A stretch of DNA of 38,530 nucleotides from positions 1 through 38,530 of the forward strand of contig CANHTS010000004.1 of NCBI GenBank assembly GCA_947463435.1, read 5' to 3'. This stretch comes from Flavobacteriales bacterium (GTDB lineage: Bacteria > Bacteroidota > Bacteroidia > NS11-12g > UBA955). The translations under genes and the position numbers were made by a program. This document shows, one piece after another, positions 1,579 through 38,530 of the stretch. Each line of letters begins with the position of its first letter. Within the stretch, counting starts at the first letter, position 1. The notes beneath the pieces are model-generated. The model saw only the letters and a list, made by a program, of their open reading frames with translations, was not told the origin of the DNA and ran no database searches.

Positions 1579-1600
1579 TAATCAGATTCCTTTTACAGAG

Positions 1601-1626
1601 AACCCGGCTTCGGCCGGGTTTTTTGT
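1601..1626 (+). terminator. Rho-independent terminator with cUUCGg tetraloop
   Basis: AACCCGGC-TTCG-GCCGGGTT followed by TTTTG, 23 nt after the copy 1 stop. Confidence 0.9.
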
Positions 1627-1951
1627 TTTTGGGCCTGGCCAACAAAGAATGTAAAAGAGCTTGAAGGGGTTCTTTGCCTAAGTGTTTGTTTTTCTTATAG
1701 TTAAATCGAAAAGCAACTGACAGGAATCATAATTCCGACCCAAATGACACAAAAATGACATAATAAAATGTAGGAAGTCAGGCTTCCAGGTGTGAATTTT
1801 CCCGACTGATTAACAAAATGCGACTTAGCTCAGGTCATTTGTCAGCAAAGTGTAAAGTAGATGCAACCCTTTTGCAGGGATGCGTCCATTACATGCTGAC
1901 CGCAGCAGAAACTACAGAATAAACAACATCGTAAAACAACAATCAACCAAT

Positions 1952-6064: not shown

Positions 6065-6090
6065 TTGGATTGAAAGTCAGCTAATCGTAA

Positions 6091-6117
6091 AAAACCCGGC
6101 TTCGGCCGGGTTTTTTC
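6091..6117 (+). terminator. Rho-independent terminator with cUUCGg tetraloop; same core as the copy 1 terminator
   Basis: AAAACCCGGC-TTCG-GCCGGGTTTTTT just after the copy 2 stop. Confidence 0.9.
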
Positions 6118-6390
6118 GTTTATCAGCAGGTCAATGTTTCTTCTTGCTGAGCAGCGTCAGTTTTTTAAGGTGCTTTGAAGAAGAATGCAAGAGCATGGCT
6201 TGATCAGGTATTATGACGTGTGTCATATCAACCATATAGAATGTGTTTTATGGAAAGTCTTATGATGCTAATATGGGGTGGTATGGGTTGCTGAGTGACG
6301 AGAATCATGATTGTCAATCACTTAGATACCCACCGGGAAGTGCAAAATTGGCGTGTTCAAAGACACCCATATCGAAACAAACCATTACCC

Positions 6391-9300
6391 ATGAAAAGAC
6401 ACTTTACACACGTATGGAAGAACTGCTTTGCGGTCTTCTTGCTGCTCGTTGCCTGGTCTGGAGGCAATCTGCGCGCTCAAACCTATTGCCAGGCTTACCA
6501 TGCAACCGGTTGTTACACCGGCTCAACGGTGCAATGGTATATGTCTGTAGGCCATGTAGAAGTAATGCAGGATGGCAAAACTGTATTCAAGAAAACCAGT
6601 GATGCCTGCACACACACCACCAATGGCATCAACCAGATTGTAATGAATGCGGGCAAGCCATTTGACCTGACGGCTGGCAGCACTTATACCGGGAGCTTCT
6701 CGATCGAATCCGGAACCGGTAATTGGCAAGGTTGGATCGGGGTTTGGGTAGACCTGAACCGCGATGGTACGTTCTCAAATACGGAATTTGTGAGTGTCAA
6801 TTGGGCAGTTTTTGCTTCCGGGGCCATTTCGAGCCGTACCTTCAGCATCGGTTGTTCCGGGGTGAATCCCGGCGCTTCCCGCATGCGCGTGCGCTCCGAA
6901 TACAACGGCTATGCCAACTTTACGGCCGGCGAAGGTTGCAACCAGAAACAGTACGGCGAAACGGAAGACTATGAAATCAATCTTGGTCTGCCTACTTCGT
7001 TGAGTGCCGACTTTATTCTGCCCGATCCATCTACTGCCTGGGTAAAAACACGTTTGAAGTTCATCAACCGCAACCAGAAAGGCTATATCCGCCACGAATG
7101 GGATGGCTCTGACAACGGAAACGGTTATGATGCAACCAGCATCGACTGGATGAAAGCCTTCAACAGCGCAGGTACTTATTCGGTAAAACTTCGTTCCACT
7201 AATTGCCTGGGCCGCGACAGCATTACCCGCAATATCACCATCCGCACCCCAACAGTGGTGCCGGTATCAGACTTCATCGCCAATGCAAACCTCCTCGAGC
7301 AGTACGAAGAATTGCAATTGTTCGACCTGAGTCAGTACGGTCCATACGACTGGCGTTGGGAAATCTATGATTCCGCCCAGGCTCCGCCGGTGTTCTATAC
7401 AGAAGCCGATCGCATCAATCCGCCAACCGATCCTGACGGCAAGAAAAATCCCCGATTCTTCATGGATATGCCGGGTAAATACACCGTTAAGATGACAGCT
7501 TACAACGACAATGGCTGGTCGCCGGTAATGACAAAAATTGACTATGTTGAGGTAACGCCTCCGACCGACTACACCATCGGTTTTGGCCAACTCAGCACCC
7601 AGGTTTCAACCGGTCGGGTAATCGACCATGCCGGTCCCAACGCCAACTACGGTGCCAACCGTTCCAATTTCGTGGACCGTTTGCTTATCCAACCCTGCAA
7701 TGCGCAGGTAATCAACCTCAAGTTCCAACAGCTGCGCTTCGCTGACAACAACGATGTTCTGAAGATTTACGACGGTTCTGATGAATCCGGACGCAAGCTG
7801 CATCCCGGAAACGGCATTACCCTCTCCAACCAGGTTGCTGCCCGCCGCGATACCTTCCGCGCCACTTCGGGTGCCATGTATATCACCTTCCAATCGAACG
7901 CATCTGGTTTCGACAGCGGTTTCATCGGCACGTTCTGGAGTAAACTCGGTTCAGCTACACCTCCTGTTGCCGGTTGGAAAGTGGATTATGAACCCGGTTA
8001 CAACAGCACCGAACTCGAATTCGAGAACGCCACCCAAGGACGTTATGGTCTGATGTCTTACGAGTGGGACATCGATGAAGGCGGGTTCTCCACCCAGTAT
8101 TACACCGAAGATGCCAAGCACACTTTTTATACCGACGGCAAATACACTGTATGTCTTACTGCAGCAGGTTGCGCCGGTATTGATAAGTTCTGCAAAGACA
8201 TCGATATCGTAACGCCGAATACCAAAACCAAGCTTGATTTTGCCGCCAACGACCGCCGGCCTGACATTGGTGAAGAAATCACCCTCAAGATTGATGCTGA
8301 CAACGCCAACCAGTTTGAGTGGAGCATTTTCCCGACCACATATGTTGTAACTGCAGGCTCGGTCTCAACCAGCAGCAATAAGGAACTTAAAGTGAAGTTT
8401 ATTGCCGGTGGGGCCTACACTTTCACACTCAAAGGCTGGAATACAAACAACCAAACTGCAACCCAGGCTACCGTGGTAAAAGATAAATACGCGGTTGTTC
8501 TGAACTATTGCACGCCTGTTGTGGGTCTGAAGAGTGCTGACGTTGGAATCAACAACGTGGTTCTGAAGAAAGGTTCTCAGACCCTGATGGCCAACGAAAC
8601 CGAAAGCGGTGTAGAAGGTTATACCGACTACACCCTGACCAAATCGGCTACCATGACGTTCGGTGCTGAGTATAATGTGGAAGTAAGCCGGAATACTACG
8701 GTAAACCCCATGAACCGCAAGGTGTGGATCGACTTCAACATCGATGGCGACTTTGATGATGCCAATGAAATGGTCCTCAGCGAATCTTCATCGACCAACG
8801 CCAGCGTGAACGCCAACTTCAATGTGCCTTTCTTGTCTGCGAGCTTTGAAGGCAAAACGCGCATGCGTGTGGCCAGCAGCTACAGCAACTACGCCAACAC
8901 CCCTTGCGGCGCCAATGCCGTAGGTGAGTTTGAAGACTATACCATTAACCTGGCGAACGACAACCTCGCACCGACCATCACACTCAATGGTTCCGACACG
9001 GTGCGCATCGAACGCAATTGTGCGGCCACTACTTACGTAGACGCTGGTGCAACTGCTTACGATCCGACAGAAGGTGACATCACCAGCCGCATCGTAACCA
9101 CAACCGACTTCGACCAGTGCGTTCCCGGTATCTATACCTATAACTACAATGTGAGCGACGCTTCAGGTAATCCTGCCCCGGGCCGCCGCCGCGTGGTGAT
9201 CGTAGTGCTTGACCGCACCGCGCCTGTTCTTACACTCAACGGCTCCAGCCCAATGACGGTTGAACAATGTGGTACTTATACTGAACCCGGCGCCAACGCA

Positions 9301-10509
9301 ATCGATGGCGTGGATGGTAACCTCACCACCGCCATCGTTACAAACGGAAGCGTGAATACCAACGTGCTTGGTACTTACACCGTCACCTACACAGTTCGCG
9401 ACGCACAAGGCAATACCGCAACCTTGGATCGCTTAGTAAATGTAGTGGATACCAAACAGCCAACCATGATGATGAACGCTCAGGCGATCGTTACCGGCTC
9501 TACGGTAAATGTCCAGATCAACGATGTATTTGTTGATCAGGTGTATACCGAAGATCCCTGCACAGGCATCATTCCTACCAATAACACTCCCGGCTTCAAC
9601 GGTCCGGTTAATACAACCCGCCGCGCTACTTACCCGATTATCTACAACGCAAAAGATCCAAGCAATAACAATGCAACCAACGATGGAGCAGTGATCAATT
9701 ACCGTGTAGATGATTTCGTTCCCCCGGTTGTGGTACTCAATACCGAAGACACCATCTTCCTGGAAGTGAACACGCCTTACAACAGCAAGCCTGTTACCGT
9801 AACAGACAACTATTACAGCAATTCACAGGTAAGCGTGGTAAAAGCCGGAACAGTTGATCCTTACACACTGGGTCTTTATACCGAGCGTTATACCGCCACG
9901 GATGCCAGCGGCAACAGCACCACCCGCACCCGTTATGTGCGTGTGCGTGATACCAAGTCGCCACAAATCGTAGCGCCTACAGTGAATATCTGCATCGGTT
10001 ATGGTTTCGATCCGATGGATGGTCTTCAAATCACCGACAACTACTATTCACCCAGCACCCTGTTGGGCCTTGTACAGATCATGAACCAGAACGTGAATAG
10101 CTGGGAAGCTGGTGTTTACTACATCAACTACCGTATAACCGACCCGAGCAACAACACCAGCGAAGTGGTTTCACGTCCGGTATTTGTTGGCTATCCGCCG
10201 AACTGCCAGAACACGGTGAACAGCTGGAACTTGGCTACTTCAGTGAATAACTTCAACCTCGACGAAGCCATCAGCGTATACCCGAACCCCAGCGGTGGCA
10301 AGGTGTATATCCGCTACCAGCTGAACAATGCCAAGCCCGTACAGATGGAAGTGTTCAACGCTACCGGTGTGCGTGTCGCCATGACAGACGGTACAGCTGT
10401 AAGCGGTACCGGCATGGTTGACCTCAGTGGTATGAGCGAAGGAATCTACCTGGTGCGCATTACCAACAATGGTCAGACTGCTACCCGCAAGGTGGTTGTG
10501 AAGCACTGA
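6391..10509 (+). CDS. Large secreted adhesin-like protein, copy 3: same architecture as copy 2 with a diverged N-terminal region
   Basis: ATG at 6391 gives MKRHFTHVWKNCFAVFLLLVAWSGGNLRAQ (signal peptide); the track start at 6295 is GTG. Near-identical protein core to copy 2 from LGLPTSLSADFILPDP onward; T9SS C-terminus. Confidence 0.92.
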   Translation: MKRHFTHVWKNCFAVFLLLVAWSGGNLRAQTYCQAYHATGCYTGSTVQWYMSVGHVEVMQDGKTVFKKTSDACTHTTNGINQIVMNAGKPFDLTAGSTYTGSFSIESGTGNWQGWIGVWVDLNRDGTFSNTEFVSVNWAVFASGAISSRTFSIGCSGVNPGASRMRVRSEYNGYANFTAGEGCNQKQYGETEDYEINLGLPTSLSADFILPDPSTAWVKTRLKFINRNQKGYIRHEWDGSDNGNGYDATSIDWMKAFNSAGTYSVKLRSTNCLGRDSITRNITIRTPTVVPVSDFIANANLLEQYEELQLFDLSQYGPYDWRWEIYDSAQAPPVFYTEADRINPPTDPDGKKNPRFFMDMPGKYTVKMTAYNDNGWSPVMTKIDYVEVTPPTDYTIGFGQLSTQVSTGRVIDHAGPNANYGANRSNFVDRLLIQPCNAQVINLKFQQLRFADNNDVLKIYDGSDESGRKLHPGNGITLSNQVAARRDTFRATSGAMYITFQSNASGFDSGFIGTFWSKLGSATPPVAGWKVDYEPGYNSTELEFENATQGRYGLMSYEWDIDEGGFSTQYYTEDAKHTFYTDGKYTVCLTAAGCAGIDKFCKDIDIVTPNTKTKLDFAANDRRPDIGEEITLKIDADNANQFEWSIFPTTYVVTAGSVSTSSNKELKVKFIAGGAYTFTLKGWNTNNQTATQATVVKDKYAVVLNYCTPVVGLKSADVGINNVVLKKGSQTLMANETESGVEGYTDYTLTKSATMTFGAEYNVEVSRNTTVNPMNRKVWIDFNIDGDFDDANEMVLSESSSTNASVNANFNVPFLSASFEGKTRMRVASSYSNYANTPCGANAVGEFEDYTINLANDNLAPTITLNGSDTVRIERNCAATTYVDAGATAYDPTEGDITSRIVTTTDFDQCVPGIYTYNYNVSDASGNPAPGRRRVVIVVLDRTAPVLTLNGSSPMTVEQCGTYTEPGANAIDGVDGNLTTAIVTNGSVNTNVLGTYTVTYTVRDAQGNTATLDRLVNVVDTKQPTMMMNAQAIVTGSTVNVQINDVFVDQVYTEDPCTGIIPTNNTPGFNGPVNTTRRATYPIIYNAKDPSNNNATNDGAVINYRVDDFVPPVVVLNTEDTIFLEVNTPYNSKPVTVTDNYYSNSQVSVVKAGTVDPYTLGLYTERYTATDASGNSTTRTRYVRVRDTKSPQIVAPTVNICIGYGFDPMDGLQITDNYYSPSTLLGLVQIMNQNVNSWEAGVYYINYRITDPSNNTSEVVSRPVFVGYPPNCQNTVNSWNLATSVNNFNLDEAISVYPNPSGGKVYIRYQLNNAKPVQMEVFNATGVRVAMTDGTAVSGTGMVDLSGMSEGIYLVRITNNGQTATRKVVVKH

Positions 10510-16501: not shown

Positions 16502-19500
16502 TTACAGCGGGAGATGCAGGGAAAAGGTGCTCCCTGATGCATCGTTCCGATACGTCAGTCGTCCGTTGAGCATCCGGGTAAACCGGAGTATTAGATTCAA
16601 TCCGATTTCGTCTGCAGCAGTAGCTTGCAAGACCCATTCCCCTTCTCCTGCATTTTTGGAGCCGTAGATTTGGAGGATATCGTCTGGAAGACCGCTGCCG
16701 GAATCCTCCACCTGAACCAATAAGCCGGCACCGACCTGGCAGACTTTCAGGTGTATCCTGCCTCCGGGAGTATACTTGTTGCTGTTGTCCAACAGGTTGC
16801 GCAGGATGGATTTGAAGATGCCGGCATGGGTTTCCATGTGTAAATCGGGTGTATCGCTTAGGATTTCGGCGCCCAGTACATTCGTCCCGCTTTCGATAAT
16901 GGGTTGGTAGAAACGCACTACATCTTCCACAAGGGCGGCTACGTGCAGTTTTTTGAACGGCAGTCGGCCATCCAGCGGGCGTTTCAGCCACAGGTTGAAA
17001 TCGGTAGCAAGCAGATACAGGTCTTTGATGGTAGTGGCAAAAAGATTGAAAGTCGAAAAATACTGCGGCGCTTCGGCCCGCAAACGCCTGTTAAAGCGAT
17101 AGGCACTCTCGGTCAGAAACATGAGCGGTGATCTTACGTCGTGTAGCAATACCGCATTCATTTTTTCCCTGGTTTCATAGGCTTCGGTTACTTCGCGGCG
17201 CGAAGCTTCAAGATCGAGCAAGGCAGTGCGCAATTCATGGGTACGCTGATTTACTTGAAAAGTAAGTTCCGCCTTGCGTTTAAGCAGTTTTAGGGTTCGT
17301 ACTTTTAGTAAAACCAGCGCCAAGAAAACAATGCTGCAAACCGTGCTGAGTCTGAACCAGAGCGTGTTGTACCAATAAGGCGGAATGTGGATATTCAGGG
17401 TTTTGAGCACTCCGTTGATGCTGCGCAATTCAAGTTTATAGTCACCGGGTGGCAGTTTGAAGGGCCCGATGGTGTAGTTTTCAGGGATAGGCCTCCATAT
17501 CGGAAAGGCTGGCGAAATGCGGTAGCTCAATGCACCTTCAGCAATGAATGGCTGTAAAGTTTTAATGCGGACTGATACGAAGGAATAGTCAGGCGAAAGA
17601 TCGAGTGAACCGGCGTCGTTGATGGTATCCTTGCCGGAAATGATTGCTACCAGACACAGTTTGTGATTTTTTGCCTGAACATGCGTGTTTCGCGGTACTT
17701 TGAGCAAACCCTGATTGGAAGGGAAGAAGTAGTAGGGAAGATTGTTGACAGATTCCTGGGGATAGTTGCCCCCGTTTAATTCCCTTGCCGGAAGATGCAG
17801 GCCGCATTCCAGCTTGTTATGAATGTTGCCTATTCGTCCATTTGCGTCGCAAGCCAGAATAAAAATCGCCCTGTTAGTTACCAGCCATAATTTGCTGTAA
17901 ACAGGATCGTAGCGCAGGCTGATGGTTGCGAGGCTCCAATCGTACGGATCAGTGAAAGCAGGTGTCTGGGTATCCGGATTCAAACCGCTGAGGATGCCAC
18001 TGCCATAGGTCGCCCATATCCAGGTTTTGCCAATTTTTACTGCGTCGCGAACGGCCAATGTCTTCAGGATATGTGCCTTAATATGAAAATTTCGATCGAC
18101 CAGATAGGCTCCGTTTTGGCTCAACAGCCAGGCATCTTCTCCGTCGCGTCGCATATTGAAAAAACTCAGTGCCCCGCTTATCCGGGTACAAAGAACACTG
18201 CTTCCCTTGTCGAAATCGACCTTGTGAATTTTGTCTGAACTGCAGGCATATACCTGCCCATGCAACTCGAAAAACAGGTCGTAACGATCTTTGCTGCCCG
18301 GCAAACGCTTGGTTTTGCCATCCTTCAAGCGGTAGGCAATAATTCCTGCATCGTCGTGCATCCAGACAATTCCACGGCTGTCGGAAAGTATCGGATGCCC
18401 TATGGACGGTGTTGAAAGCAAACGTCGGACATGCTGCTCGGCCGTATCCATCGACAACAACCCGCCGCTTGGTATGAGCAATTGGGTGTCGTGGGAATGC
18501 GTATAGGAATAGATGAAAACAGCACCTCTTAACTGGAGTTTATTGCCATTCAACAAGGTGGCAGGGGTGAAGCTGAGCCGCAGCAATCCATGATCGTAGG
18601 TTCCGAGCATGAAACTGTTTCGGCTTACCGGAAGTGCGCAGTATACCTCTTCTTTTGAGTATGGATATAAATCGGGGACTTCACGGAGGGTCCCGCTGGC
18701 AAGGTCGCAAACAAACAAGCCCTTTCCGCTGGTGAAGACTACAAGGGTGTCGGTGAACCATAGAAAGCATGGATTGTCGTCGATGGGTTTCAAAATCGAA
18801 CCAGCGGGACCATTGAATCGCAACTTTTCCTTGTTGCATTCCAGTAGATACGGGCCATACCTGGCAATAACAGGATAGTCATTCTTGGTTCCGGCTGGTG
18901 TTCCGGGCGCATGATACCAGTCGTCGTCCACGCAAAATGCGGTAAGCTTTCCGTTGTAAGCGATTTGCTTGGCTACAATATCCGATTTCACCTCGTCCGG
19001 TAGTTGCCAGTCGCGCCGGTTTATTTTCCAGGCTTGGCCGGCATAACCAACAAAAGCGGAATCAGGGTGGGAAGTGAATTCTTGGATGCGCCCATTGTTG
19101 TGCAGCGCAACCAAGCCGCTATAAGCATCCATCAACAGAATCTGGTTGTTGTCGCGGCGCCTGTACATCGATTTGTGTCGGTCTGTCCGCAGGCCCGGAC
19201 TGTTTTTACGCAGGAATACACGGGTATCAATGCCATCGGTTTGCAGGAGACCGAAGCTGGATGCGAGCCAAAGTTCGCCGTTGGTATCGGCCTGGATACC
19301 CAGAATAGAGTTTTGAAGCAGATGCCGGTTGATATTCGATTCAGCCTGAATCAGGTAATGGCGATCAACTACTTGTTGTCCGAAAATGTCTGAAGCACAT
19401 GCAATCCATAGACATACCGGCCATAATGCAGGCTGAATAAGGCGCCCTGTAATGCAATTCAGGGTATTCAGTAAGAATAGGGTGTTCTTTGGTTTGAATA

Positions 19501-27089: not shown

Positions 27090-30000
27090 TTATAACATGA
27101 GCGACAGATTTGCGGCATCTGTTGCGCTGAAAGTAGTTAAGACCTGCCTGTCGTAGCGATGCGGAATATTGGCTGTTGCATCGCCATGACTCAGAATCCG
27201 GTCTAGTTCCAACCTGAAGTTGAACCCTGAAAGCGTTTCCGGCGTAAAGGCAATCGGACTGTTAAACAAGACCAACACGCGGCTTGAATCCGGCTTCCAG
27301 ATAATATTGGATGCCAGGATCGAGGATTGCGTGGCGCTCAATAACCGCAGGACACGATTGATGCGGAATCGGCCCAGTTGGGTGCTTCGCCCATGCCTGG
27401 TGATGGCGGGAGTAGCGGCGTCCATGTAGTCGGCAAAGTGAATCCACAGACCCAACAGACGGTTGCTGCCGCTTTCCTTTATCAATTGAGGTTGTGCTGT
27501 GGCAGGCGGTGGCAACAGCAATAGTTCCGGTTGTACGGCATCCATCAGGTTCCGGAATCGGAGTTCTGCATTGGACTGTTGTTGTGCCAGGCGGCCGCGT
27601 ACGGCATCGATGGCTTCAGTACCTGTCAAGCCCCCGGGCTGTTTTGCTTCCTTGAATTCTGCGTCTTTTTCAATTTCCCACAAATCCTGCTCAAGTATCC
27701 GGTAATCCCGGAAGCCGTTCATGGCATCGGTGATCAGGGTCGAAGCAGGTATGCGCCCCTCGGTCAGCTGCATTTTTAAAGGTGCAGCGCAAAGTTCCGC
27801 CAGGTTTCTGTTGCGGTTTGCTGTGAATGGGATTTCTATGGATGCGGCTCTGCGCAGGCTGATATTGCTGATAGTATAACCTTGGTTCTGGGTTATACTG
27901 ATAATCCCCGCGCCTCCCGACCATCCTTTGATGCGGTCTGGCAGCAGGGGCGGGATTTTTAGCATCCAGTTGTTGCTGCTCAGCACTTGCAATACTTCGG
28001 TTCTGGTAACGGTAACAGCGTTGGTGCCTACCGTTTTGATTCTTCCGCGCATCGCCAGCCGTTCACCGCTGAAAATATCTACATTGGCATTGAGGGCCCA
28101 GCCTTCCGGAACCAAAACGGTGCTTGCCGTCGTGCTTCCGAGGATCGTAAAGGCGAAATCGCCGAGTGCACTGGTAAGTTGATTGCTGCTGAACAACTTC
28201 CCGCAGCACAAATCCAATAACCAAATGCGTGTGTAGTTCACATGCAGTTCCAGCCGTCCGGCAAAGCAAATTACCCGGATGCGGTTTTTTTGGTCAGCGC
28301 CTGTCTTGAACAAGTCGAACTGCAGATTCGAGCTCAGGGTTCGGCGGAATGTTGTCGCGCCATTTTCGATCAGGCGCAGTTCGGAGCCATTGAGCGTGGT
28401 CTTGGTTACATTGGCGGCTGTTGCTACTGTGTTCCAGCGCAGGATCAGCTCCAGCCGGTTATTGCCGCTCTCCAGCAGGCGGATGGTAAAGTAGTTCGGG
28501 CCAAAACTCTTCGGAACAAAGTCAAATGCCAGGTCTATATCGCTGAGATCCTGCCGCTTCGACGATACCATCAAGTCGGGTTTGTTCCCGCCAATTTCCA
28601 ATCCGGTGTGCCGGTTTGGGCCCAATCCGGTACCGATGTTTATGCCGTCTGAGCAATTGAAACGGTGGCGTACTTCGTCGACACTGCCTGAGCCGGTAGC
28701 TGCCAATTCTTCCCCACCTGAGCCACCGCCAACCAGCAGTGTATATGCTTTTCCGGGTTCCATTCCCACCCGTTGCGTCTGGATATCCAGCGACATATCC
28801 CGCGGCAATCCAAGGCTTTTTCCACGCCGCTGTAATTCAGCCTCCCAATTGGCCTCATCAGGAAAGAAGGTAGTATTGCTCTGCAATGAAAAGCTGCAGG
28901 GCAGATGCCAACTTTCGCCGTCTTTGCCCCGCAGCGCCGTTGACAGGCCGTATTCCGGTGCGCCAATTCCGTTGTGTAAAAGCTGAATGTAATTGCGTTT
29001 GAAGCGCAAGGTAGACCGTGTATTATTCAAAACACCCATGCTGCCTTTTTCAGGATATGAATGCTTCACGTATGCCTCGAGGTTTGCTGGCGGTCCTTCC
29101 GTTTGAAAATAAGCTACCTGGGTATAGTTTTCTTCCTTCGTCTCTGTAGTCCCGCTCAGACCCAGCGCCTGCTTGTACAACAAATAGAGCTTGCGGTTGC
29201 TGTAGACACGTGCGCGCTGCCTGGTTGTGATTTCAATTTTGTAATAGCTGCCAGGCTTCAAGTTGCGGGTCGTTTCCGGTGAAACAGGTAACGCAATGTT
29301 GGCGTAACCCGGGTTGATTACCGGCTGGATATCGTCGTAAACCGGACAGACACGGGCTATTTCAATGAACGAGGCCCGTAGCGTGATCTGTTGAAACGGC
29401 TGTGTGGAGGCCAGGCTGAAAACCGTTCCTTCGGCATTTTGTGCCTTTATGCCGGGCGTGGTGGCAAAGCAGAGATAGTGAAAGTCAGGGTTGGCAAGGC
29501 CGGGTTGGCTTCCCTTGGGATAATTGCCCTTGTCGTCAGGTGCCGGTATTTGGCAAAAATCGGCGTCGAGGAATGCTGCACTGCTGCACAAGGTCAAATC
29601 GATGCGTTTGACCGGCCGATCGAATGCGAGGGTGATGGTTTCCGTGCCGCGCAAGCATGCATCGCGCACCTCAAATCGTTGCGGGGAGTAAACGTGCATG
29701 CCTGCATACGACCAACCGGACCCACCGATAAAACTCAGCGGGGTTTCCGTATTAAATGCAATGCAAGGGTCTTCTGCTGCAGGCAGCAATGGTCCGAATA
29801 AAAAGTTACTGTGTTCATTCAATTGGCGGCGGCTCAAGTGTTCTGCTTTGGCGGCCGTTGAACCGAATAATCCACCCAGGGTTTCCATGCTGTGCATCGT
29901 CATGGCAACCGGATTGGGTGTGTGAAGCTGTAACTTTTTATACGGTGGTCTGCCGGCCATCGCAGGGTCACTTTCCAGCAGCCATGACCCGATCAATTGC

Positions 30001-33000
30001 CTGGGGGTGCCGGCCGAACTGAATTCAAGTGTCCAGGCTGTGGTTTGGAATGGTCTTGACTTGGGTTTCGAGAAAACCTGGATGCTGACGATTTCCGGGT
30101 TGACATCTACTTCTCCGATCCGGTACACTTGGTTTGCTCCCGGGTGACGCAGAAAATGCGCATCATTGAAACCGGTAGCATGGTTCATGTCGCGGCTGAA
30201 ACTAAGCACCGGGAAACTGTCCATCTCGGCGGTCGGTGAGAACTGCGCAATGGGAGCTTCCACAGCGGCATTGGTGATTTCTGCCAAACGGCGGACAGCA
30301 GCTGTTGGCGCATGGGTGCGGAAACGATTGACCAGGCTTACTTCAGCCAGCGGCGATTCCAGGGTGATCCGCTGTACACTGGGCAAGGTGTATTGGAAGT
30401 TGTGTTCAAAAGCAAAGTCGGGCAAGCCATCGGGCAGGTTGAGTTGGGCCCTGAAATCGGCCGACATGGAAAATGGCTGCGGACCGGAGGCTTTCATGTC
30501 GGCCTCCATGATTACGGATGCTTCCAATCCCAGCGCACTGATGCCAAGCTCACCATCGATTTCAAGGGAGCCACTGAACTGGTCTGGCATCATCGAGATT
30601 TCTCCCTTGCCGTCGATCGACAAACGGGCTTTTATATCGATGCCGATATCCTGCCCCAGCACATTGACCTTGGGCGATGGAATCGGTGGTTCAACCACTG
30701 TGGATGCTCCCATCCGTGTACGCAATCCGCCGTTCTCATTCATGTCGAACATCAGATACGCATCGGCGCGGACAACGTTCAGCAGATTGGCCTTGATGCG
30801 GCGGCTCTTCGGTTCGTCAATGCCCAGGAAGATATGCCAGTTGGTGATGTCTTTGAAATCGAAGAAAGCTTCCAGTTCGCCCGATGCATCAAGGGTTTTG
30901 GCAATGATTTCGGCCTGGGCTTCGATATTGAACTGCGCAATTTGTTCCTTGCCGTCAAAAATGGCCAGGGCACGCAGGGGTGGTTCTTTGGGGTTTGAAG
31001 CGGGCAGACCTTCCAGCAACAACGCCCGTCCTTCGAGGATCAGGATGGGGCCGGGAACAGCCAGCACCAGCAAGCCGCGGGTGCCTTTCACAAAGCCGTC
31101 GGCCGAGGTGATGGTGACGCCGATTCCCAAAGCGAAAGCATTGCGCGCATCGCGCCATTTGTTGGTCTGATGGGCGCCCGGAATCGGTCCGCGCTTGTAC
31201 CAGTCGGCATACCAATTCTGGTCCGGATTGCGGTCCGGTTCCACATTGATACCCAGCATGCCCAATGCGCCTTTCAATGCCAGACCCGATTGCCCCAGCG
31301 GAATACCGGCGGCCAGCTCGAACCCGAAATAGGTCATGAAGAAGGCATATGCGGGCATTTCGAAGTTCATGCCCACCAACAAGCCTGCCTCTGCCTTGAA
31401 GCCTGCGGTCGGCACATCCAATACCATGTCGCCACCAAAACCGACCTTGTTGGGTTCCTTGATCAGGCGTGCGCTTCCTTTGATGCTGAGTGTTTTGGGG
31501 ATTTCGAAATCCACATTGACGCCTGAGAACTGCACCTGTATTTTCTTCAGTTCATTGATAACCGTTGCTGCATTACCCAGGTCGAGGGTTTCCGGCCACT
31601 TGAATTTGCATTCTTCTACATCGCCCTTGATGGGAAGGAAGTCGATCAGTTTCATGCCGCCCGAAAAGCCGAACCACATTTGATCGCCTTCCATGCCGAA
31701 GCCGACTTTCTTGATTTCGCCTGAGAAGCCGTAGAAATCAAGCGCTGCCGTTCCCTGCATATCCATCCAGGCTTCCTTGATGCTCAGCTTGCCTTTGCTG
31801 TCAACGAAGAGGTCTTTCACATCCAGCTTGGGCCATTTCATGCCTTCGGCTGCGAAGAGCAGGGGTTCGAGGGCGCCGGAGAGGCCGAATTTGGGGTTGT
31901 CGCCCTGTGTTTGAATGTCAAGGGATTTAAGCGTTAACTTAATAAGCCCTTCTTTTTTTATTTCCAGCCCTTCATTCAGCGCTTCAATGCGGATATTCGC
32001 TTTGAAGTCTTTGTCAAAAGAAACGGAGATGTCGACCGGTGTATTGAAATAAGGGATGAACATTTTTCCCTTGCCTCCGGCTTTGGTGATTTTGTTTTTC
32101 TCAACAGTAATTTCAATGTATTCCAGTCCTGCATTCAGGCCAAAGAAATCTGCGTCCTGATTCACCGTTCCAGTATACCTGATGTGTTTTGTTCCTGCGG
32201 CTGGTGTAGCCGTAAAGTGTAATGGCCACTGGGCTTTGAAGGTTCCGGTTACACCATTTTTATCGATAAGTAAATCTCTCGCGCCAATTTTTGGAAGCAA
32301 TGAAAATAAAGCTGCGTTGATACCCAGCGTCCCTTCTTCTTTTCCGGTTGGGGGAATGATGCTTGCTGAAGAAGCACTAAAACTCAGGTTGTTGATATCA
32401 GGGCTAATGCTCGGATTTTCAACTTCCACCACAAAACCGGTATCGCCAATGAAGAATGGATCAAGTTCAAATGAAACAGGGCTTCGTTGACCGGTAGTTT
32501 CAAAGTTAATATCCGAAAAAAGACCAAACTCCAGGTTCTGGTTTATGCTAATAGAACTTTTGATAAGCACCTTGAATAATTCGTCGTTATTTACCTTGAC
32601 ATAGGTACCGAGGTTATTATCCTTTACTGCTTTTTTTATGAGGGTAGATTGAAACAGTATTTCTATAGGGAAATCATGAAGCGCTATATCAAGTGTACGT
32701 CTGCCGGTTTTGATGGTTACCGGATAAATTTCAAGCGTGTCAGTTTCAGCCGGTGTACCGATTTGAATCGTTGCCAATGAGGCAATACTTACAGGAGATA
32801 GCCTTATCAAATCTTCACATCCAATTACGCAGAACAAGGCGATATGGTCATCGTGTTCATAGTATTCTATATGGAGCAGGTGGAATTTGCTAAGAAATTC
32901 TCGGAGCCCTTCAGGTAGCAAGCCAGGGTTTACCTCGCGCAAGCTGAATGCAGGCTCGGGTATGGAATTCAGAACTGCTTCCTCGAGCAGATGGTTCTCT

Positions 33001-33071
33001 GTGAAATTAAATCGCTGGAGTGACTCAAATAAATCAAACCCCTTCAGAAAATTTTCCGTGAATGTTGTCAT
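27090..33071 (-). CDS. Giant (1,993 aa) beta-repeat-rich protein of unknown function, no obvious signal peptide
   Basis: Single uninterrupted ORF, MTTFTENFLKGFDLFESLQRFNFTENHLLEEAVLN... N-terminal ~900 aa of alternating beta/glycine-rich segments (GFGMEGDQMWFGFSGGMKLIDFLPIKGDVEE...); C-terminal half with lectin-like beta modules. Confidence 0.9.
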   Translation of the reverse strand: MTTFTENFLKGFDLFESLQRFNFTENHLLEEAVLNSIPEPAFSLREVNPGLLPEGLREFLSKFHLLHIEYYEHDDHIALFCVIGCEDLIRLSPVSIASLATIQIGTPAETDTLEIYPVTIKTGRRTLDIALHDFPIEILFQSTLIKKAVKDNNLGTYVKVNNDELFKVLIKSSISINQNLEFGLFSDINFETTGQRSPVSFELDPFFIGDTGFVVEVENPSISPDINNLSFSASSASIIPPTGKEEGTLGINAALFSLLPKIGARDLLIDKNGVTGTFKAQWPLHFTATPAAGTKHIRYTGTVNQDADFFGLNAGLEYIEITVEKNKITKAGGKGKMFIPYFNTPVDISVSFDKDFKANIRIEALNEGLEIKKEGLIKLTLKSLDIQTQGDNPKFGLSGALEPLLFAAEGMKWPKLDVKDLFVDSKGKLSIKEAWMDMQGTAALDFYGFSGEIKKVGFGMEGDQMWFGFSGGMKLIDFLPIKGDVEECKFKWPETLDLGNAATVINELKKIQVQFSGVNVDFEIPKTLSIKGSARLIKEPNKVGFGGDMVLDVPTAGFKAEAGLLVGMNFEMPAYAFFMTYFGFELAAGIPLGQSGLALKGALGMLGINVEPDRNPDQNWYADWYKRGPIPGAHQTNKWRDARNAFALGIGVTITSADGFVKGTRGLLVLAVPGPILILEGRALLLEGLPASNPKEPPLRALAIFDGKEQIAQFNIEAQAEIIAKTLDASGELEAFFDFKDITNWHIFLGIDEPKSRRIKANLLNVVRADAYLMFDMNENGGLRTRMGASTVVEPPIPSPKVNVLGQDIGIDIKARLSIDGKGEISMMPDQFSGSLEIDGELGISALGLEASVIMEADMKASGPQPFSMSADFRAQLNLPDGLPDFAFEHNFQYTLPSVQRITLESPLAEVSLVNRFRTHAPTAAVRRLAEITNAAVEAPIAQFSPTAEMDSFPVLSFSRDMNHATGFNDAHFLRHPGANQVYRIGEVDVNPEIVSIQVFSKPKSRPFQTTAWTLEFSSAGTPRQLIGSWLLESDPAMAGRPPYKKLQLHTPNPVAMTMHSMETLGGLFGSTAAKAEHLSRRQLNEHSNFLFGPLLPAAEDPCIAFNTETPLSFIGGSGWSYAGMHVYSPQRFEVRDACLRGTETITLAFDRPVKRIDLTLCSSAAFLDADFCQIPAPDDKGNYPKGSQPGLANPDFHYLCFATTPGIKAQNAEGTVFSLASTQPFQQITLRASFIEIARVCPVYDDIQPVINPGYANIALPVSPETTRNLKPGSYYKIEITTRQRARVYSNRKLYLLYKQALGLSGTTETKEENYTQVAYFQTEGPPANLEAYVKHSYPEKGSMGVLNNTRSTLRFKRNYIQLLHNGIGAPEYGLSTALRGKDGESWHLPCSFSLQSNTTFFPDEANWEAELQRRGKSLGLPRDMSLDIQTQRVGMEPGKAYTLLVGGGSGGEELAATGSGSVDEVRHRFNCSDGINIGTGLGPNRHTGLEIGGNKPDLMVSSKRQDLSDIDLAFDFVPKSFGPNYFTIRLLESGNNRLELILRWNTVATAANVTKTTLNGSELRLIENGATTFRRTLSSNLQFDLFKTGADQKNRIRVICFAGRLELHVNYTRIWLLDLCCGKLFSSNQLTSALGDFAFTILGSTTASTVLVPEGWALNANVDIFSGERLAMRGRIKTVGTNAVTVTRTEVLQVLSSNNWMLKIPPLLPDRIKGWSGGAGIISITQNQGYTISNISLRRAASIEIPFTANRNRNLAELCAAPLKMQLTEGRIPASTLITDAMNGFRDYRILEQDLWEIEKDAEFKEAKQPGGLTGTEAIDAVRGRLAQQQSNAELRFRNLMDAVQPELLLLPPPATAQPQLIKESGSNRLLGLWIHFADYMDAATPAITRHGRSTQLGRFRINRVLRLLSATQSSILASNIIWKPDSSRVLVLFNSPIAFTPETLSGFNFRLELDRILSHGDATANIPHRYDRQVLTTFSATDAANLSLML

Positions 33072-34270
33072 TGTGTTTTTCTTACGAATCCATGCCCAAA
33101 TTCCAAATCAACGGAAACGCCGGTAATACCTACATCCCTGCTTCTAAGGATTGTTGCCGAAAAGAAATTATTGTTATCTAGTAGCATCATAGATCCGGAT
33201 TCCGCTGCCGCAACAGCAGAAACACCTCCCATGATTTCGAATATATGAAAAGGAAGAATTTCATCAAATGTGAGTGCCGTATCCGTTATAAATTCACCTC
33301 CCGAGAAAGCGTTTTCGGGCAATTCAAGACCGGCTGACCAACCGGAATTTGAAAGTGCATTTGCTATGGTTCGCATATTATCCGGAGTATTTGGCACCTG
33401 CCATGGGAATAAGCCATTAAATGTTGTTTTTAGTTCCTCTAATTTTTTTGTAAACTTTTTTATATATCTAAATCTTTCCAGACTTTTGGTAAGTGCGCTT
33501 ACTCCACGTCCAAGTGCACCGGTTATTTTACTCATTGGAAGACCAACTGCAAATGAATAATAAGTAACATTTCTGTCTGCAATTGATGTGCTAAATGATT
33601 CGTCCATCATTTCCAGTTTCCCCAAGGTGACTTTTGCGCCAATAGCGCCTCTTGCATCGTCGTCTAATCCTGTACCTGAGGAGAAGTTAAATCCGATTTT
33701 CCAATATCTGCTCCTTAATTGTCCATCTGCTTCTGGTGTTGATGATAAGTCCATTTGAACCAGATAGGCGATTTCCACACGTCGATCACCTGGTGTATCA
33801 GCCTCTGTTGTATTTCGGCGTTCTCCAAAACTTTGTAGAATATGTGTGTTCAGTTGTGAAAATGCATCCGCATTCAAAGCCGTTTGATGATGCTTGTATT
33901 TTACTTTTTTGGGTTGCCCAGCTTCAAACAACAATGTGTCAATATGTGCCTTGGTGCGCAATGCCCGCGCCCGACTTAGATCGTCGTTGTATTTGACAGA
34001 TCCCGGGCTGCTTGCATAGCCTGTAATGCTGGTGATTACAAGCTTCACGCACTTCTGGTCAGACTCCATTGCATTCAGGAATGCTGAAAGACTGTCTCTG
34101 TGAGATTCACCAAGTTCAGCCTGATCAAACGCAATTCCTGATAAAGTAATGATGTAATGATTGATGTATCCGTTTTCAAAGCTGACATTTGACTTGCTTT
34201 GATCCAATCTCCTTTGAAATCTAGCTTCGTCCAATGTAGATACCGTATTTGACTCTGTTGCCATTGACAA
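33068..34270 (-). CDS. 400-aa protein with OmpA-like domain and no visible signal peptide
   Basis: ITLSGIAFDQAEL...ITGYASSPGSVKYNDDLSRARALRTKAHIDTLLFEAG...TPGDRRVEIAYLV. ATGA overlap (33068-33071) with the 1,993-aa gene; 5 bp after the upstream gene. Confidence 0.8.
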   Translation of the reverse strand: MSMATESNTVSTLDEARFQRRLDQSKSNVSFENGYINHYIITLSGIAFDQAELGESHRDSLSAFLNAMESDQKCVKLVITSITGYASSPGSVKYNDDLSRARALRTKAHIDTLLFEAGQPKKVKYKHHQTALNADAFSQLNTHILQSFGERRNTTEADTPGDRRVEIAYLVQMDLSSTPEADGQLRSRYWKIGFNFSSGTGLDDDARGAIGAKVTLGKLEMMDESFSTSIADRNVTYYSFAVGLPMSKITGALGRGVSALTKSLERFRYIKKFTKKLEELKTTFNGLFPWQVPNTPDNMRTIANALSNSGWSAGLELPENAFSGGEFITDTALTFDEILPFHIFEIMGGVSAVAAAESGSMMLLDNNNFFSATILRSRDVGITGVSVDLEFGHGFVRKTQ

Positions 34271-34275
34271 GGTGT

Positions 34276-37200
34276 TTAATTAAGTAGAATGGGTTTTGAG
34301 GTGATGCTTTGTTCGCTCATGAACTGAACTGAAATCGACGTGTTTTGGTTGCCTGTACCTTCGTCCAGTACCAGTATGGAGGACTGGTTTGCCGATGTTG
34401 ATGGCAAGGTTTGCCATCCCTTGAAACCTGGTGCTACGTCGTTTATGCGTGTTGTTATGAGGTTGCTTTCATTACCTGTCACTCGATAAACCCGAACCTG
34501 TAAGCCTGGCCGGTTTACGGGTGGCAGGTTGATTTGCCTTTTGCCATTGCTGTTTACTCCCAAAGTGATTCCGCTGATATCGGGAGCTGCAAGGTTGACC
34601 AAGGAGATTTCTCTGGTCGTAAATCGAGCCGACGGTAGCTGTAAGGTGCCGATCGTTTTGATAAATCGTGCTTCGTATATGTAAGCGGTGTTAAGCGCTG
34701 CTGTTTCATCAAGGAAGCTTAAAAAGCCATTTTCTTGCTGCGCAATAACGCCATTGACCTCTATTGAATAACGATCAAATGAATGTTGATTCTCTTTAAA
34801 TGAAACACCCGTAATCCGGATAGTTGTGTTGTTCACTGTTATAAAGTCAATGTTGTAGGTATCTGCCCCTATCAGTTCCGAAGTGGCGTTGGCCTGGTTT
34901 GGCAGGCGGCGCAGAACGACTCGTTGCTTTGCGAAGGCTATAAGAGCCGGTCCAGTTTGGCCGCTGGTTGTTATACGAAAGAATGCCACATCGCTGTTAG
35001 CAATGTTCAGACTCTTTCCATTGGTAAAAAATGGTTTAGGGGAAACAGCTGTATTGGACAGTTCAAATCGCCCGAGTTTAATGGCTAATGGGCTTCCGTT
35101 GGTACGCCGTTGTATCTCAATATGCGTAATTCCAGGGTCTTCGGAGGTCTTCCAGATGAGTAAGCTTTTGTTCTTCAGATTGGCTACTGAAAATGAATGA
35201 ACTTCCTCCGGCGCCCGCATATCCAACTGCAGCACCGCACCTCCGGCCGGCGACCATGGCCCGCGATTCTCAGCCGCATCCACCACACGCACCTTGTAGA
35301 AGAAACGATCCGTGCCGCTGGCTGGCATGCGGTCCGTGTAACCGGGCGTATTCAGGGACGTACTGTGCAATAAGGCAAACGCCTGCTCCATAATGGTCCT
35401 GGCTTCCGGTGTATTGCTGATGTCGGCCAGACGGCGCAATTTGGCTGAATCCCTGTGGATGAGATGATAGGGCGGATCGCGATCCAACTGCATGGTTGAG
35501 CCGGAGGGCGCAGTGAATGGCTGCGTTTTGCACCGCACTACCACCAGGCAGGTGGAGAGATTGTCGGTTGCTGCCTCGGCCTGAAGTATCTGGTAAATAG
35601 CATTGCCTTGTACGAGGCGACCGCCCACAAGGTTATTCAGGTTGTTGGTGGATAAGCGCAGTCTGTGGGTTCCGGCAGGCGCATTGTTTAACCCACTGAG
35701 GGTAGAGAAGGCTACCTGTGTTGGCGGATTCGCGGGCAGGTCATTGAACAAGGTTTCCAGGTTGAAGGCTGTTGGGTTCAAATACCACAAAGTGCGGTGC
35801 TGGTTGATGATCGCACTTCCCGAGGCCCGCGCGATTTCATACCGCATACCTGTGCCGGCATTGTCCCATTCCAGGCAAACCATGGCGTGATTGCTTTGGT
35901 CTGGTAAAGGTGCTTGCTGGTCTGTTCCCTGCGCCGTTCCGCAGAAGCGGGGCATAGGGCCGGGTGCAGCCGGCCTGGGCCGCAATTGCGTCACCTGCAT
36001 GGCTTTCGACATGCGGCCGGCATTGTCTTTTTGATCGCGTGAACGCAGGGCAAAATAGGTATCCAATTTGCCTGCGGTGCCGGGTACAGTGCCGCCAACC
36101 AATGCGCTGATGTCGATCTCGTTCAACGGGAAGAAGCGCGCCTTTTGATTGGGTACAAGCTCCAGAATCTCTTTTGGACACTGTACCAGTGCTTCGTAAT
36201 TGCCGTTGCCAAGGGCATAAACATCGCTCAGCAATTCCATCGACAGGGGCAGCAAGTCGCTGTTGAACGCAGTGGGAGATGTATTGGGTGCGGCACGGAG
36301 ATACCTTCCCCATACAAACATTTCACCTCCGTTTATGCTGTTGGAGGTATTTGGATTGGCGGCATTGCTCATCAACAAGCGCATCATGCCCTGTACCGGA
36401 TTGGCGTTTTCTGCTATGCCTGCTTCGAGGTTTACCTGCGGCAGAACCGGAAAGAAGCGCAGCTGGCTGTTTACTGTGAGCGCGGAAGATGCCGTAACCC
36501 AAATGCGCGTACAATGCAGCTGGGTTTCCGGTTTGTTGTTGAGCAGGGCAATCTGCGACGCTGTAATGACCGATCCCGAGAACTGCTCCAGCACCGGAGT
36601 CGTTAGCGATAAGTCGGTTCCTGCAAGGGAGCCTTTGAAGATGCCAGGTGCCAGCAAAGGCCGGTCGAGGTATAATTCTACGAGGTTCTGCTGGTTGAGT
36701 TTTCTTCCGGTAATGCGGTCAACAGCCATTTCAGGCGTAATGACCCTGCGGTGCAAAATGCGGCAGGTAAAAGCTGCATCCGCGTTGCCCAGTGTTCCGG
36801 GCCGATTGTATCCACGCGATGATGTAAGCCGGAACCCCAGTGGTGAATTGAAGGACTGGCTTGAACGGGCATTCCCCCAGAAAGATGGATCATCAGAAGC
36901 CGCTTCCATGCGCAAGGCGCCTGATGCAGGCAATTCCAGCCCCGGATGGCCGGTCTGAATCCTGATCAGAACTGTATTGTCAGTGTGCAACCGCAGCTGG
37001 AAATTGTTGAACGATAGGCGGCGGGAGGGTGGAAGCGGTTTGCTGTCCGCTCCATGGGTAAGCCGGATGGTGCCGGTTTGCGGCAAGCCGCTGAGGGTGT
37101 TCAAACCCTTGCACTGCAAGGTGTAAATGCGGTTGCCATTGCTTTCTGTAACAAATGTTCTGCCGCCAACCTGCAGTAATTCAAACTTGTGGCTGTCTCC

Positions 37201-38530
37201 CCGGCCCAGTGCGGTTGAACTGTGCAAATCAAACTGCTTGATGTCGGGGGCTGCAAGGTATTCTGAACCGCCGAACATGAATTGCAGGAAAGTCTTTCCG
37301 TCGCGTTGTGTCGTATTCAGCCTGCGTGGCGGGGGCGGTGCGATGGTGTCGGAAACCGTGATGCTGCCGGAATTTACCGGGTTCTGCAAAACGCCAAAAA
37401 GATCGATCCCTTGTGCGCTGTAAGATGTTGGTGTATCAGGCGGCAGTCCGTAATCTGAATAAACCGGTTTGATGCCGGCCATCGCCTCTTCCGAAGGGAA
37501 GATCGGTCGCTTGTCGCCAAGGATCGTATTCTCAGTGCCGCTTATCCGGGTAAGTAGCAATAATATGCTGTCGTTCAGGTCTGCCGCGTTGGGTGTTTTG
37601 GTGAGGGAAATGCGGGCCGTTGCACGACCGACGAACTGATCGGCCGGAATGCTGTTACTCGCCAGAATCTGTGGTTCCGGAGCAGCACTCTCGCGGGTAA
37701 GGATGCCCGGATTCTCGATGGCGCCAAAACGGTAACGGGTATTGTTGTTATCCGAGACCTTGGCCTGTACCGAGTCGAGCACACCTGATAAAATGGTTCC
37801 GCCGCTGTAATGCGCTTCTACCTTGTAGGCGTAAAAAGTGCCTTCAGCAGCCTTCAGGTCTACAAAATACAGCTGCAACAACCGGGCAATGTTGGGGTCA
37901 GTAGCTGCCCAAAGCAGCCATTGCAATGGATAAAACTTCGGCTGGTTTACATTGATTCCGGTGAGCAACTCAAGATCGTGGTAAGGCTTAGTCAGATCTA
38001 CAAAAACACTCTGACTTCCTGCGGGAAGAATTTCCTTCTGCTTCAAGGCTTCCAGTAGTTTTCTGTAGTTGCCGGATAAGCCGCTCAATTTTGTACGGTA
38101 TGCGCTGCCGCCGTTGTTGTAATAATTGCGGTAGTTCGCCAACTCGCTGATATGTAAACTGAAATCGGGGAGTGCCAGGTTAGACGTATTGTATACCAGC
38201 AAATCTTTGTCTGATATCCGTTCCCAAGTGTCTGAAATCATATTGCTCGTTTCGGCGCAGGTGATTTCCGTAATCTTATCAAATACCAACTCAATACCCA
38301 CCCGCGTGATGCCTTCATGGAACAAACTGATTTGTTTCACACCGGCCGGGTGTATCATTTCGATCAACTGGCCACTGTCGCTGTAAGCATGCACACGCAC
38401 GGGTTTCGCGTTCTCGAGATTGATCAGGAATCTGCGTACCGGACGTTCGAGCAAAAACTGCATGTAACGGCCCGGACTTTGGTTCCCCGGCACAAAACAA
38501 TCCGATGTAAACTGCAACCTGCCCTGAATA
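34276..38530 (-). CDS. Giant (>1,413 aa) FN3-like multidomain protein, N-terminus outside the window
   Basis: The track start at 38517 is a TTG; the frame stays open to the window edge (...IQGRLQFTSDCFVPG). FN3-like strings APEEVHSFSVANLKNKSLLIWKTSEDPGITHIEIQRR and FFYKVRVVDAAENRGPWSP. Confidence 0.85.
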   Translation of the reverse strand, partial: IQGRLQFTSDCFVPGNQSPGRYMQFLLERPVRRFLINLENAKPVRVHAYSDSGQLIEMIHPAGVKQISLFHEGITRVGIELVFDKITEITCAETSNMISDTWERISDKDLLVYNTSNLALPDFSLHISELANYRNYYNNGGSAYRTKLSGLSGNYRKLLEALKQKEILPAGSQSVFVDLTKPYHDLELLTGINVNQPKFYPLQWLLWAATDPNIARLLQLYFVDLKAAEGTFYAYKVEAHYSGGTILSGVLDSVQAKVSDNNNTRYRFGAIENPGILTRESAAPEPQILASNSIPADQFVGRATARISLTKTPNAADLNDSILLLLTRISGTENTILGDKRPIFPSEEAMAGIKPVYSDYGLPPDTPTSYSAQGIDLFGVLQNPVNSGSITVSDTIAPPPPRRLNTTQRDGKTFLQFMFGGSEYLAAPDIKQFDLHSSTALGRGDSHKFELLQVGGRTFVTESNGNRIYTLQCKGLNTLSGLPQTGTIRLTHGADSKPLPPSRRLSFNNFQLRLHTDNTVLIRIQTGHPGLELPASGALRMEAASDDPSFWGNARSSQSFNSPLGFRLTSSRGYNRPGTLGNADAAFTCRILHRRVITPEMAVDRITGRKLNQQNLVELYLDRPLLAPGIFKGSLAGTDLSLTTPVLEQFSGSVITASQIALLNNKPETQLHCTRIWVTASSALTVNSQLRFFPVLPQVNLEAGIAENANPVQGMMRLLMSNAANPNTSNSINGGEMFVWGRYLRAAPNTSPTAFNSDLLPLSMELLSDVYALGNGNYEALVQCPKEILELVPNQKARFFPLNEIDISALVGGTVPGTAGKLDTYFALRSRDQKDNAGRMSKAMQVTQLRPRPAAPGPMPRFCGTAQGTDQQAPLPDQSNHAMVCLEWDNAGTGMRYEIARASGSAIINQHRTLWYLNPTAFNLETLFNDLPANPPTQVAFSTLSGLNNAPAGTHRLRLSTNNLNNLVGGRLVQGNAIYQILQAEAATDNLSTCLVVVRCKTQPFTAPSGSTMQLDRDPPYHLIHRDSAKLRRLADISNTPEARTIMEQAFALLHSTSLNTPGYTDRMPASGTDRFFYKVRVVDAAENRGPWSPAGGAVLQLDMRAPEEVHSFSVANLKNKSLLIWKTSEDPGITHIEIQRRTNGSPLAIKLGRFELSNTAVSPKPFFTNGKSLNIANSDVAFFRITTSGQTGPALIAFAKQRVVLRRLPNQANATSELIGADTYNIDFITVNNTTIRITGVSFKENQHSFDRYSIEVNGVIAQQENGFLSFLDETAALNTAYIYEARFIKTIGTLQLPSARFTTREISLVNLAAPDISGITLGVNSNGKRQINLPPVNRPGLQVRVYRVTGNESNLITTRINDVAPGFKGWQTLPSTSANQSSILVLDEGTGNQNTSISVQFMSEQSITSKPILLN

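Follow-up and report, generated by a model that had tools for sequence, protein, structure and literature searches.

Three genes at the end of the 38,530-nucleotide window, by which we mean the whole stretch of DNA analyzed, belong to a conserved gene set that is found in at least three phyla and is apparently undescribed. Comparison of the loci that carry related sequences shows that two giant genes, A and C, are paired while the gene in the third position, B in the window, is exchanged. The original prediction of a candidate undescribed multi-protein system is supported by the recurrence of the genes, together and in order, in other phyla. What is new is the gene set as a system without a characterized relative; its biochemistry may prove familiar.

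Organization of the locus

The three open reading frames abut on the minus strand at the positions first described. Gene A (34276-38529) encodes an FN3-like giant of 1,417 codons that is open at the window edge, gene B (33068-34270) occupies the exchangeable position and encodes an OmpA-like protein of 400 aa (398 aa from the ATG at 34264), and gene C (27090-33071) encodes a protein of 1,993 aa. The stop codon of B and the start codon of C overlap in an ATGA (33068-33071, minus strand). A 5-bp gap separates A from B when the TTG start of B is used, and the gap widens to 11 bp with the ATG two codons further on. Promoter and terminator scans revealed nothing above chance level.

The window spans an entire contig (C4 of genome G000), which is why gene A is truncated, and the earlier caveat that A was incomplete was correct, as the gene runs past the contig end. 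The last 358-359 bp of this contig are shared at 96% identity with a second contig, C165, with both overlaps located at contig ends. C165 supplies 124 further N-terminal residues, giving a total of approximately 1,541 aa for A. The N-terminus (C165, L004:2-730, minus strand) has a Tat-type signal, NRRHFLRISALGSLALYPAI, that includes the twin-arginine motif NRRHFLR and the hydrophobic stretch ISALGSLALYPAI, and A is a predicted Tat substrate. The Tat translocase is represented in the genome by TatC on contig C84 (E = 1.5e-63). As the added residues include the twin-arginine signal, A is not signal-less; the description of the proteins as lacking signals holds for the starts of B and C, where no signal peptide was found, and fails for A, whose N-terminus lies outside the window. 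The genes next beyond the window on C165 are housekeeping genes, named by eye as a membrane protein gene, cysS, a DinB-like gene, rfbB, and an FKBP gene.

Properties of the A, B, and C proteins

No family in Pfam, NCBIfam, or PADLOC names the A protein. A profile built from six other A proteins recovered window A among all open reading frames of the loci (E = 6.2e-15), as well as the C165 N-terminus (E = 3e-7). The conserved motif PLQWLLWAATDPNIARLLQLYFVDLKAAEGTFYAYKVEAHY quoted in the original prediction (37768-37959, minus strand) matches the profile of the other A proteins with a domain c-E of 2.6e-10, and the DPNIARLLQLYFVD motif is a genuine hallmark of the A family, with 47.7% identity over 44 aa to a Chloroflexota A protein (L096, E = 1.5e-7). 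HLRW and ARLLGLYWVD are signatures of A. For the stretch beginning TDRFFYKVRVVDAAENRGPWSP (35134-35343, minus strand; domain c-E of 8.9e-8 against the A profile), analogy suggests an FN3-like fold. Support for the FN3-like designation is indirect: Pfam returned no FN3 domain in window A at E ≤ 1, and the best FN3-type match in the A protein of L012 was fn3_4 at E = 0.043.

The designation of B as OmpA-like stands in part. Residues 48-105 (33956-34129, minus strand) match PF00691 with E = 4.8e-5, but the score of 24.1 bits does not reach the curated cut-off of 27.2. The conserved aspartate and arginine of OmpA domains bind peptidoglycan. In a weak alignment to E. coli Pal, B retains the arginine, but the aspartate of the GHAD motif is replaced by serine (GYAS). 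B also differs from the OmpA family and Pal in having approximately 230 extra residues and neither a signal peptide nor a lipobox. A single-sequence structure model of B was uninformative (pLDDT of 32).

By homology, C is a remote relative of DUF6603 (Pfam PF20248). It shares 25-30% identity over 700-1,000 aa with its homologues (E = 6e-87 to 3e-79), including 29.5% over 857 aa with the C protein of L012 (E = 3e-79), which is itself a member above the PF20248 cut-off (E = 6e-10); a further homologue, from Mycetohabitans, carries a DUF6603 annotation. In contrast, window C has no PF20248 match at E ≤ 1, and none was found in G000. In a phylogenetic tree, the C genes of type III loci group together, apart from three canonical DUF6603 genes (support 100/99). 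The canonical clusters differ in lacking an A gene and in having other giant genes as partners. They offer a parallel in that the gene upstream changes between clusters and may be a subtilase, a metallo-beta-lactamase fold, DUF4135, or tail collar gene. Among 5.39 million open papers, none mentions DUF6603 or PF20248.

Alignment with its homologues delimits a conserved core of C at residues 58-965 (30177-32900, minus strand). A low-confidence model of this core (mean pLDDT of 48, best at approximately residues 640-840 of the modeled fragment) suggests a long antiparallel beta meander. Its fold matches in the PDB were outer-membrane barrels (LptD, ushers, and a Deinococcus porin) and ApoB, with E-values from approximately 1e-5; as the query-normalized TM-scores were just 0.07-0.18, these matches indicate a long beta meander and no more. 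The tails of related C proteins contain jelly-roll domains (PF06439). No C homologue was found among phage records.

A constant A-C pair with a changing third gene

The relatives were reached by a tblastn search of C against plasmids. Single-protein searches of relatives and of the phylum, searches of viral contigs, searches of plasmids with A and its N-terminus, and sequence searches of solved structures yielded nothing useful, and PHROGs and PADLOC gave no firm match. Co-occurrence of the triplet had been set beforehand as a check, and A and C are neighbors in all nine type III loci that are readable across both genes (the window, L009/L010, L011, L012, L093, L094, L096, L097, and L098), which represent Bacteroidota, Chloroflexota, and Pseudomonadota. 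Because this adjacency holds in every relative readable across, the arrangement is not due to chance. A shorter C-A pair is found in Sphingobacteriales, where an A-like gene lies beside a C-like gene in 11 of 11 loci and both proteins begin with Sec-like signal sequences. Signal peptides are mostly absent from the A, B, and C proteins of the remaining type III loci. The Mycetohabitans set is located on a plasmid with transposase genes nearby.

The third gene is OmpA-like in the window and phospholipase-D-like (PLD) at three of the nine type III loci, with HKD motifs in PLD versions from three lineages; given this recurrence, the exchange is not constant. Elsewhere the third gene carries a peptidase-like motif or is of unknown type, and encodes proteins of 811 aa (with an HEGCH motif), 786 aa, or 1,373-1,450 aa. 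The third gene of L094 contains an HEFGH motif that is not kept in its L093 homologue, and a metallopeptidase label for it is thus weak. Both L098 and the Sphingobacteriales loci have the pair without B.

Codon use provides a further distinction between the third gene and its neighbors. Window B has a GC3 of 0.339, compared with values of 0.58 in A and C and a range of 0.43-0.68 across 281 slices of other genes. A and C are host-like in codon use, while B is markedly AT-rich, as if recently swapped in, although its AT-richness could have other causes. The Chloroflexota B2 gene (0.44 versus 0.70), the third gene of L094 (0.45 versus 0.61), and the DUF4135 gene of L033 (0.33 versus 0.54) also have low GC3. 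The variable gene of the canonical cluster L042, in contrast, has a slightly higher GC3.

A proposed exported complex

The pairing of A with C, the exchange of B, the foreign codon use of window B, the Tat signal on A, and the presence of TatC lead us to propose, at roughly even odds, that A, B, and C belong to a single operon whose products assemble into an exported complex, in which a constant pair of giant beta-rich proteins, A and C, carries or displays the exchangeable B. More tentatively, and with somewhat less conviction than doubt, the sets may constitute a new class of exported tripartite assembly spanning at least three phyla, with an A-C chassis, interchangeable passengers, and, in this genome, Tat export in the folded state.

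In such an assembly A, B, and C would bind one another, and B, which has no signal of its own, would cross the membrane with A by piggy-backing, a known behavior of Tat. The C tail might bind glycans. The complex would act outside the cell, with B as its active or tethering part: PLD versions could cleave lipids or nucleic acids, and the OmpA-like version could contact the envelope. Both that the entire complex is exported and what it targets are inferred. A Tat cargo this large would be unusual, which counts against the proposal. Also counting against an exported complex, the OmpA domain of window B appears to lack one of its two peptidoglycan-binding residues, the other type III loci are mostly signal-less, and B is missing from L098 and Sphingobacteriales.

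Insecticidal Tc toxin complexes are comparable in that a single operon encodes giant proteins together with a toxic part that can be exchanged. No Tc domain appeared when A, B, and C were scanned against Pfam. If the passenger idea is true, environmental bacteria would have in these sets a new means of exporting and targeting enzymes or binding proteins, and the loci themselves would be a readable catalogue of passengers.

Alternative explanations

A cell-surface adhesin complex, in which A and C bind glycans and B is a housekeeping-type peptidoglycan tether with no payload, is unlikely but merits serious consideration. The FN3-like A, the jelly-roll tails of C relatives, the OmpA-like B, and the Sec-exported pairs that occur without B would all suit an adhesin. 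Less easily accommodated are the PLD enzymes with HKD motifs that occupy the same position in three lineages, and a B that appears to lack the conserved aspartate of Pal and looks recently acquired. Even as an adhesin, the system would indicate where in the cell a large family of unknown function is located and with which partners, making that family directly testable.

We regard as improbable an intracellular conflict or anti-phage system of giant sensors and exchangeable effectors (PLD, peptidase). A variable enzyme-like gene does adjoin a fixed pair, the PLD resembles DrmC of DISARM (E = 4e-6), B resembles ZorB (PADLOC, E = 0.002), and the Mycetohabitans copy is plasmid-borne near transposase genes. 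However, the Tat signal on A and the Sec-like signals on the related Sphingobacteriales pairs argue against an intracellular role, and no PADLOC family is matched by A or C.

The suggestion in the original prediction that the triplet could be the distal end of an extracellular contractile injection system (eCIS) locus is very improbable. eCIS are recognized by several linked core genes encoding the sheath, tube, baseplate, spike, cap, and ATPase (PMC8213781). The locus resembles them in combining large proteins with a variable, enzyme-like gene that lies next to conserved ones, but neither scanning the main genes of the window against Pfam nor examination by eye revealed any of these core genes in the window or on C165. 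A statistical association does exist: a PF04984 sheath occurs in 8 of 16 DUF6603 genomes compared with 79 of 379 others (Fisher p = 0.011, ignoring kinship), or in 7 of 15 (p = 0.027) when one sub-cut-off genome is dropped. Nevertheless, physical linkage of the sheath and the gene set was seen nowhere. In its own genome, which is 84% complete, the one sheath-like gene detected (PF04984) is an orphan between glyoxalase-like and MscS-like genes, and in sister genomes a lone sheath gene lies beside topA. The genomes holding L012, L013, and L014 have no PF04984 match, indicating that the set does not need a sheath in these three relatives. The eCIS link is not supported, given the housekeeping genes past the window and this distribution of the sheath, and the distal-end reading is contradicted by the sheath-free genomes that carry the set.

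Finally, that three unrelated genes are packed here by chance has a negligible probability, for although dense gene packing is common in bacteria, the same neighbors recur in several phyla.

The A-B-C locus and the N-terminus of A

The original prediction described three closely packed minus-strand genes, and their positions were confirmed on the sequence: A, the FN3-like giant gene (34276-38529), B, encoding a 400-aa OmpA-like protein (33068-34270), and C, encoding a 1,993-aa protein (27090-33071). The source genome (2.64 Mb, 84% complete) is fragmented into 280 contigs; the window spans contig C4 in full, the end of this contig truncates A, and the complete A rests on a contig join. The first 358-359 bp of a second contig of this genome, C165 (5,990 bp), match the end of the window at 96% identity, and strain variation seems to have broken the assembly at this point. 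C165 extends A by 124 residues to a new start, MPSQDNEQNALNRRHFLRISALGSLALYPAIQWA, which by inspection is a twin-arginine (Tat)-type signal; TatC is encoded in the genome. The added stretch also contains an N-terminal signature, GMHLRWLFPLERGFPNFFRVFRR, common to A proteins elsewhere, and the first and second signatures of the joined A are ~262 residues apart versus 266 in the Sphingobacteriaceae protein. Both the signature and the spacing support the join.

Past A, C165 carries genes that we named by eye from their translations (a membrane protein, cysS, a DinB-like gene, rfbB and an FKBP gene), and on the other side an NAD kinase gene is convergent with C and ends 12 bp from it. Given these flanks, the operon probably consists of A, B and C alone, with no obvious immunity gene. 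At its other end (1-10509) the window encodes, in tandem, three large proteins that are related to one another and carry Bact_surface_Ig-like repeats and type IX secretion sorting tails. Two of the three contain GEVED and PKD domains, and all are likely paralogous surface proteins. The Por_Secre_tail proteins of the genome point to Bacteroidota.

Relatives of A and C

Pfam returned nothing firm for A or C, and a below-threshold OmpA match for B. All three were absent from 116 other sampled relatives, and a further 395 genomes of the phylum lacked A. A tblastn search of C against plasmids found a homologue (E 5e-75) in Mycetohabitans rhizoxinica and M. endofungorum, annotated as DUF6603 in the latter. 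The Mycetohabitans array has the gene order of the window, encoding a 1,322-aa A-like protein, a 509-aa phospholipase-D-like (PLD) protein and a 2,337-2,496-aa C; the genes are separated by 18 and 14 bp. A collection scan and profile searches added loci from Sphingobacteriaceae (L012), Azospirillum (L011, L014) and one Dehalococcoidia genome (contigs L013 and L097). They also brought in L093 and L094, from two additional genomes that share the order of the L012 genome, and three loci from two other genomes in the same phylum as that of L013 (L095 and L096 in one, L098 in the other). These loci were reached via C, a route by which relatives of A or B distant from C would escape detection.

Sequence identity among A proteins is low. 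A profile built from six other A proteins nevertheless recovered, among all locus ORFs, the window A (E 6e-15) and the C165 N-terminus (3e-7), and no shuffled decoy scored; on this profile evidence A is a fast-evolving yet real family. An FN3-rich protein in L049 also matched (1e-11), so specificity lies in the two A signatures and not in the FN3-like part. The window C matched other C proteins with E values of 3e-21 to 6e-87. In the C tree, the genes of loci with giant A and C genes (type III) form a separate clade, in which the window C lies next to that of Sphingobacteriaceae with modest support (87/86).

Canonical DUF6603 (PF20248) scored above cut-off in 15/396 sampled genomes of the phylum (about 4%). 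The canonical genes (L033-L048) occur in two kinds of giant-gene cluster, without an A gene, and in several the upstream gene varies (subtilase, metallo-beta-lactamase fold, DUF4135, phage tail collar). Open-access text searched with a few terms yielded no paper under DUF6603 or PF20248.

A-C pairing and exchange of the third gene

In each of the nine type III loci readable across both, A and C lie side by side or are separated by the third gene alone. The third gene itself changes: the window has an OmpA-like gene, and Mycetohabitans, L097 and L096 (the last with two copies) have PLD genes encoding HKD motifs. The third gene of L012 encodes 811 aa with an HEGCH motif, and that of Azospirillum, whose gene order is C-A-B, encodes a 786-aa protein with no Pfam match. 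In L094 and L093 it encodes 1,373 and 1,450 aa, respectively, and lies ahead of C; L098 has none. The Dehalococcoidia and Mycetohabitans PLD proteins (L097 10328-11869, L009 12992-14521) share 61% identity, more than the A proteins (39%) or C N-termini (52%) of these loci, which hints at transfer of the third gene across phyla. The A of the Chloroflexota locus L096 has no clear signal; directly upstream, and slightly overlapping it, is an ORF of 267 aa (18072-18875, minus strand) whose product carries a Tat signal (PF10518 E 6e-4).

In codon use the window A and C resemble the other genes of the host (GC3 0.58, divergence 0.03-0.05), whereas B stands apart (GC3 0.34, divergence 0.35); no 401-codon slice of the other genes falls under 0.43. 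Low GC3 recurs in B2 of L096 (0.44 versus 0.70), the third genes of L094 (0.45 versus 0.61) and L093 (0.30 versus 0.43), and the DUF4135 gene of the canonical cluster L033 (0.33 versus 0.54). The exceptions are Mycetohabitans, in which the values are about equal, and L042, in which the variable gene is slightly higher. The simplest reading of these compositions is that the third gene has been replaced from outside and the A-C pair kept.

The A and C profiles independently found a shorter pair in eleven Sphingobacteriales genomes (L099, L100, L102-L110). In 11/11 loci a C-like gene (~1,000 aa) is directly followed by an A-like gene (461-722 aa), in many cases with a gap of a few bp or a slight overlap, and both proteins start with Sec-like signal sequences; one C-like gene (L102) was found with profile A3 and missed by the second C profile. 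Reciprocally, a profile of the shorter A proteins recovers most type III A proteins (window A, E 1e-5). These results indicate that the A-C partnership is old, and both proteins are probably exported in this branch.

Proposed mechanism

Most likely, the locus encodes two giant beta-rich proteins that are exported as a complex with an exchangeable third protein, a proposal based on the A-C pairing, third-gene exchange, foreign codon use of B, the Tat-type signal and TatC. A, B and C would bind physically, with B exported by piggy-back, and the targets of the complex may be other cells or extracellular polymers. The C tail might bind glycans: PF06439 jelly-rolls are present in C of Mycetohabitans and Dehalococcoidia, and Pfam detected none in the window C. 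A low-confidence model of the C core, from a shallow alignment, is a long antiparallel beta meander, a shape that does not discriminate among barrel, lipid-binding belt and scaffold. Of two conserved binding residues, the OmpA domain of B keeps just one, making tethering to peptidoglycan uncertain.

Relation to contractile injection systems

Extracellular contractile injection systems (eCIS) are defined through several linked core genes (Geller et al., PMC8213781). The original prediction suggested an eCIS link, which we reject: no eCIS core gene is present at the locus, sheath genes are unlinked, and the genomes holding L012, L013 and L014 gave no sheath match. Sheath genes are mildly enriched in DUF6603 genomes with kinship uncontrolled (8/16 versus 79/379, p 0.011; 7/15, p 0.027, on dropping one sub-cut-off genome); these sheaths include orphans, and linkage was seen for none of them. 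The sole PF04984 match in the window genome is a solitary 655-aa sheath-like gene (L050, contig C241, 714-2681) between glyoxalase-like and MscS-like genes, and two sister genomes each have a solitary sheath-like gene next to topA. Such solitary genes (~490-655 aa), outside contractile loci, occur in each of the three genomes sampled from the genus of the window and in one other genome, G227; those besides L050 lie at L065 6654-8219, L067 2-1456 and L051 8745-10217.
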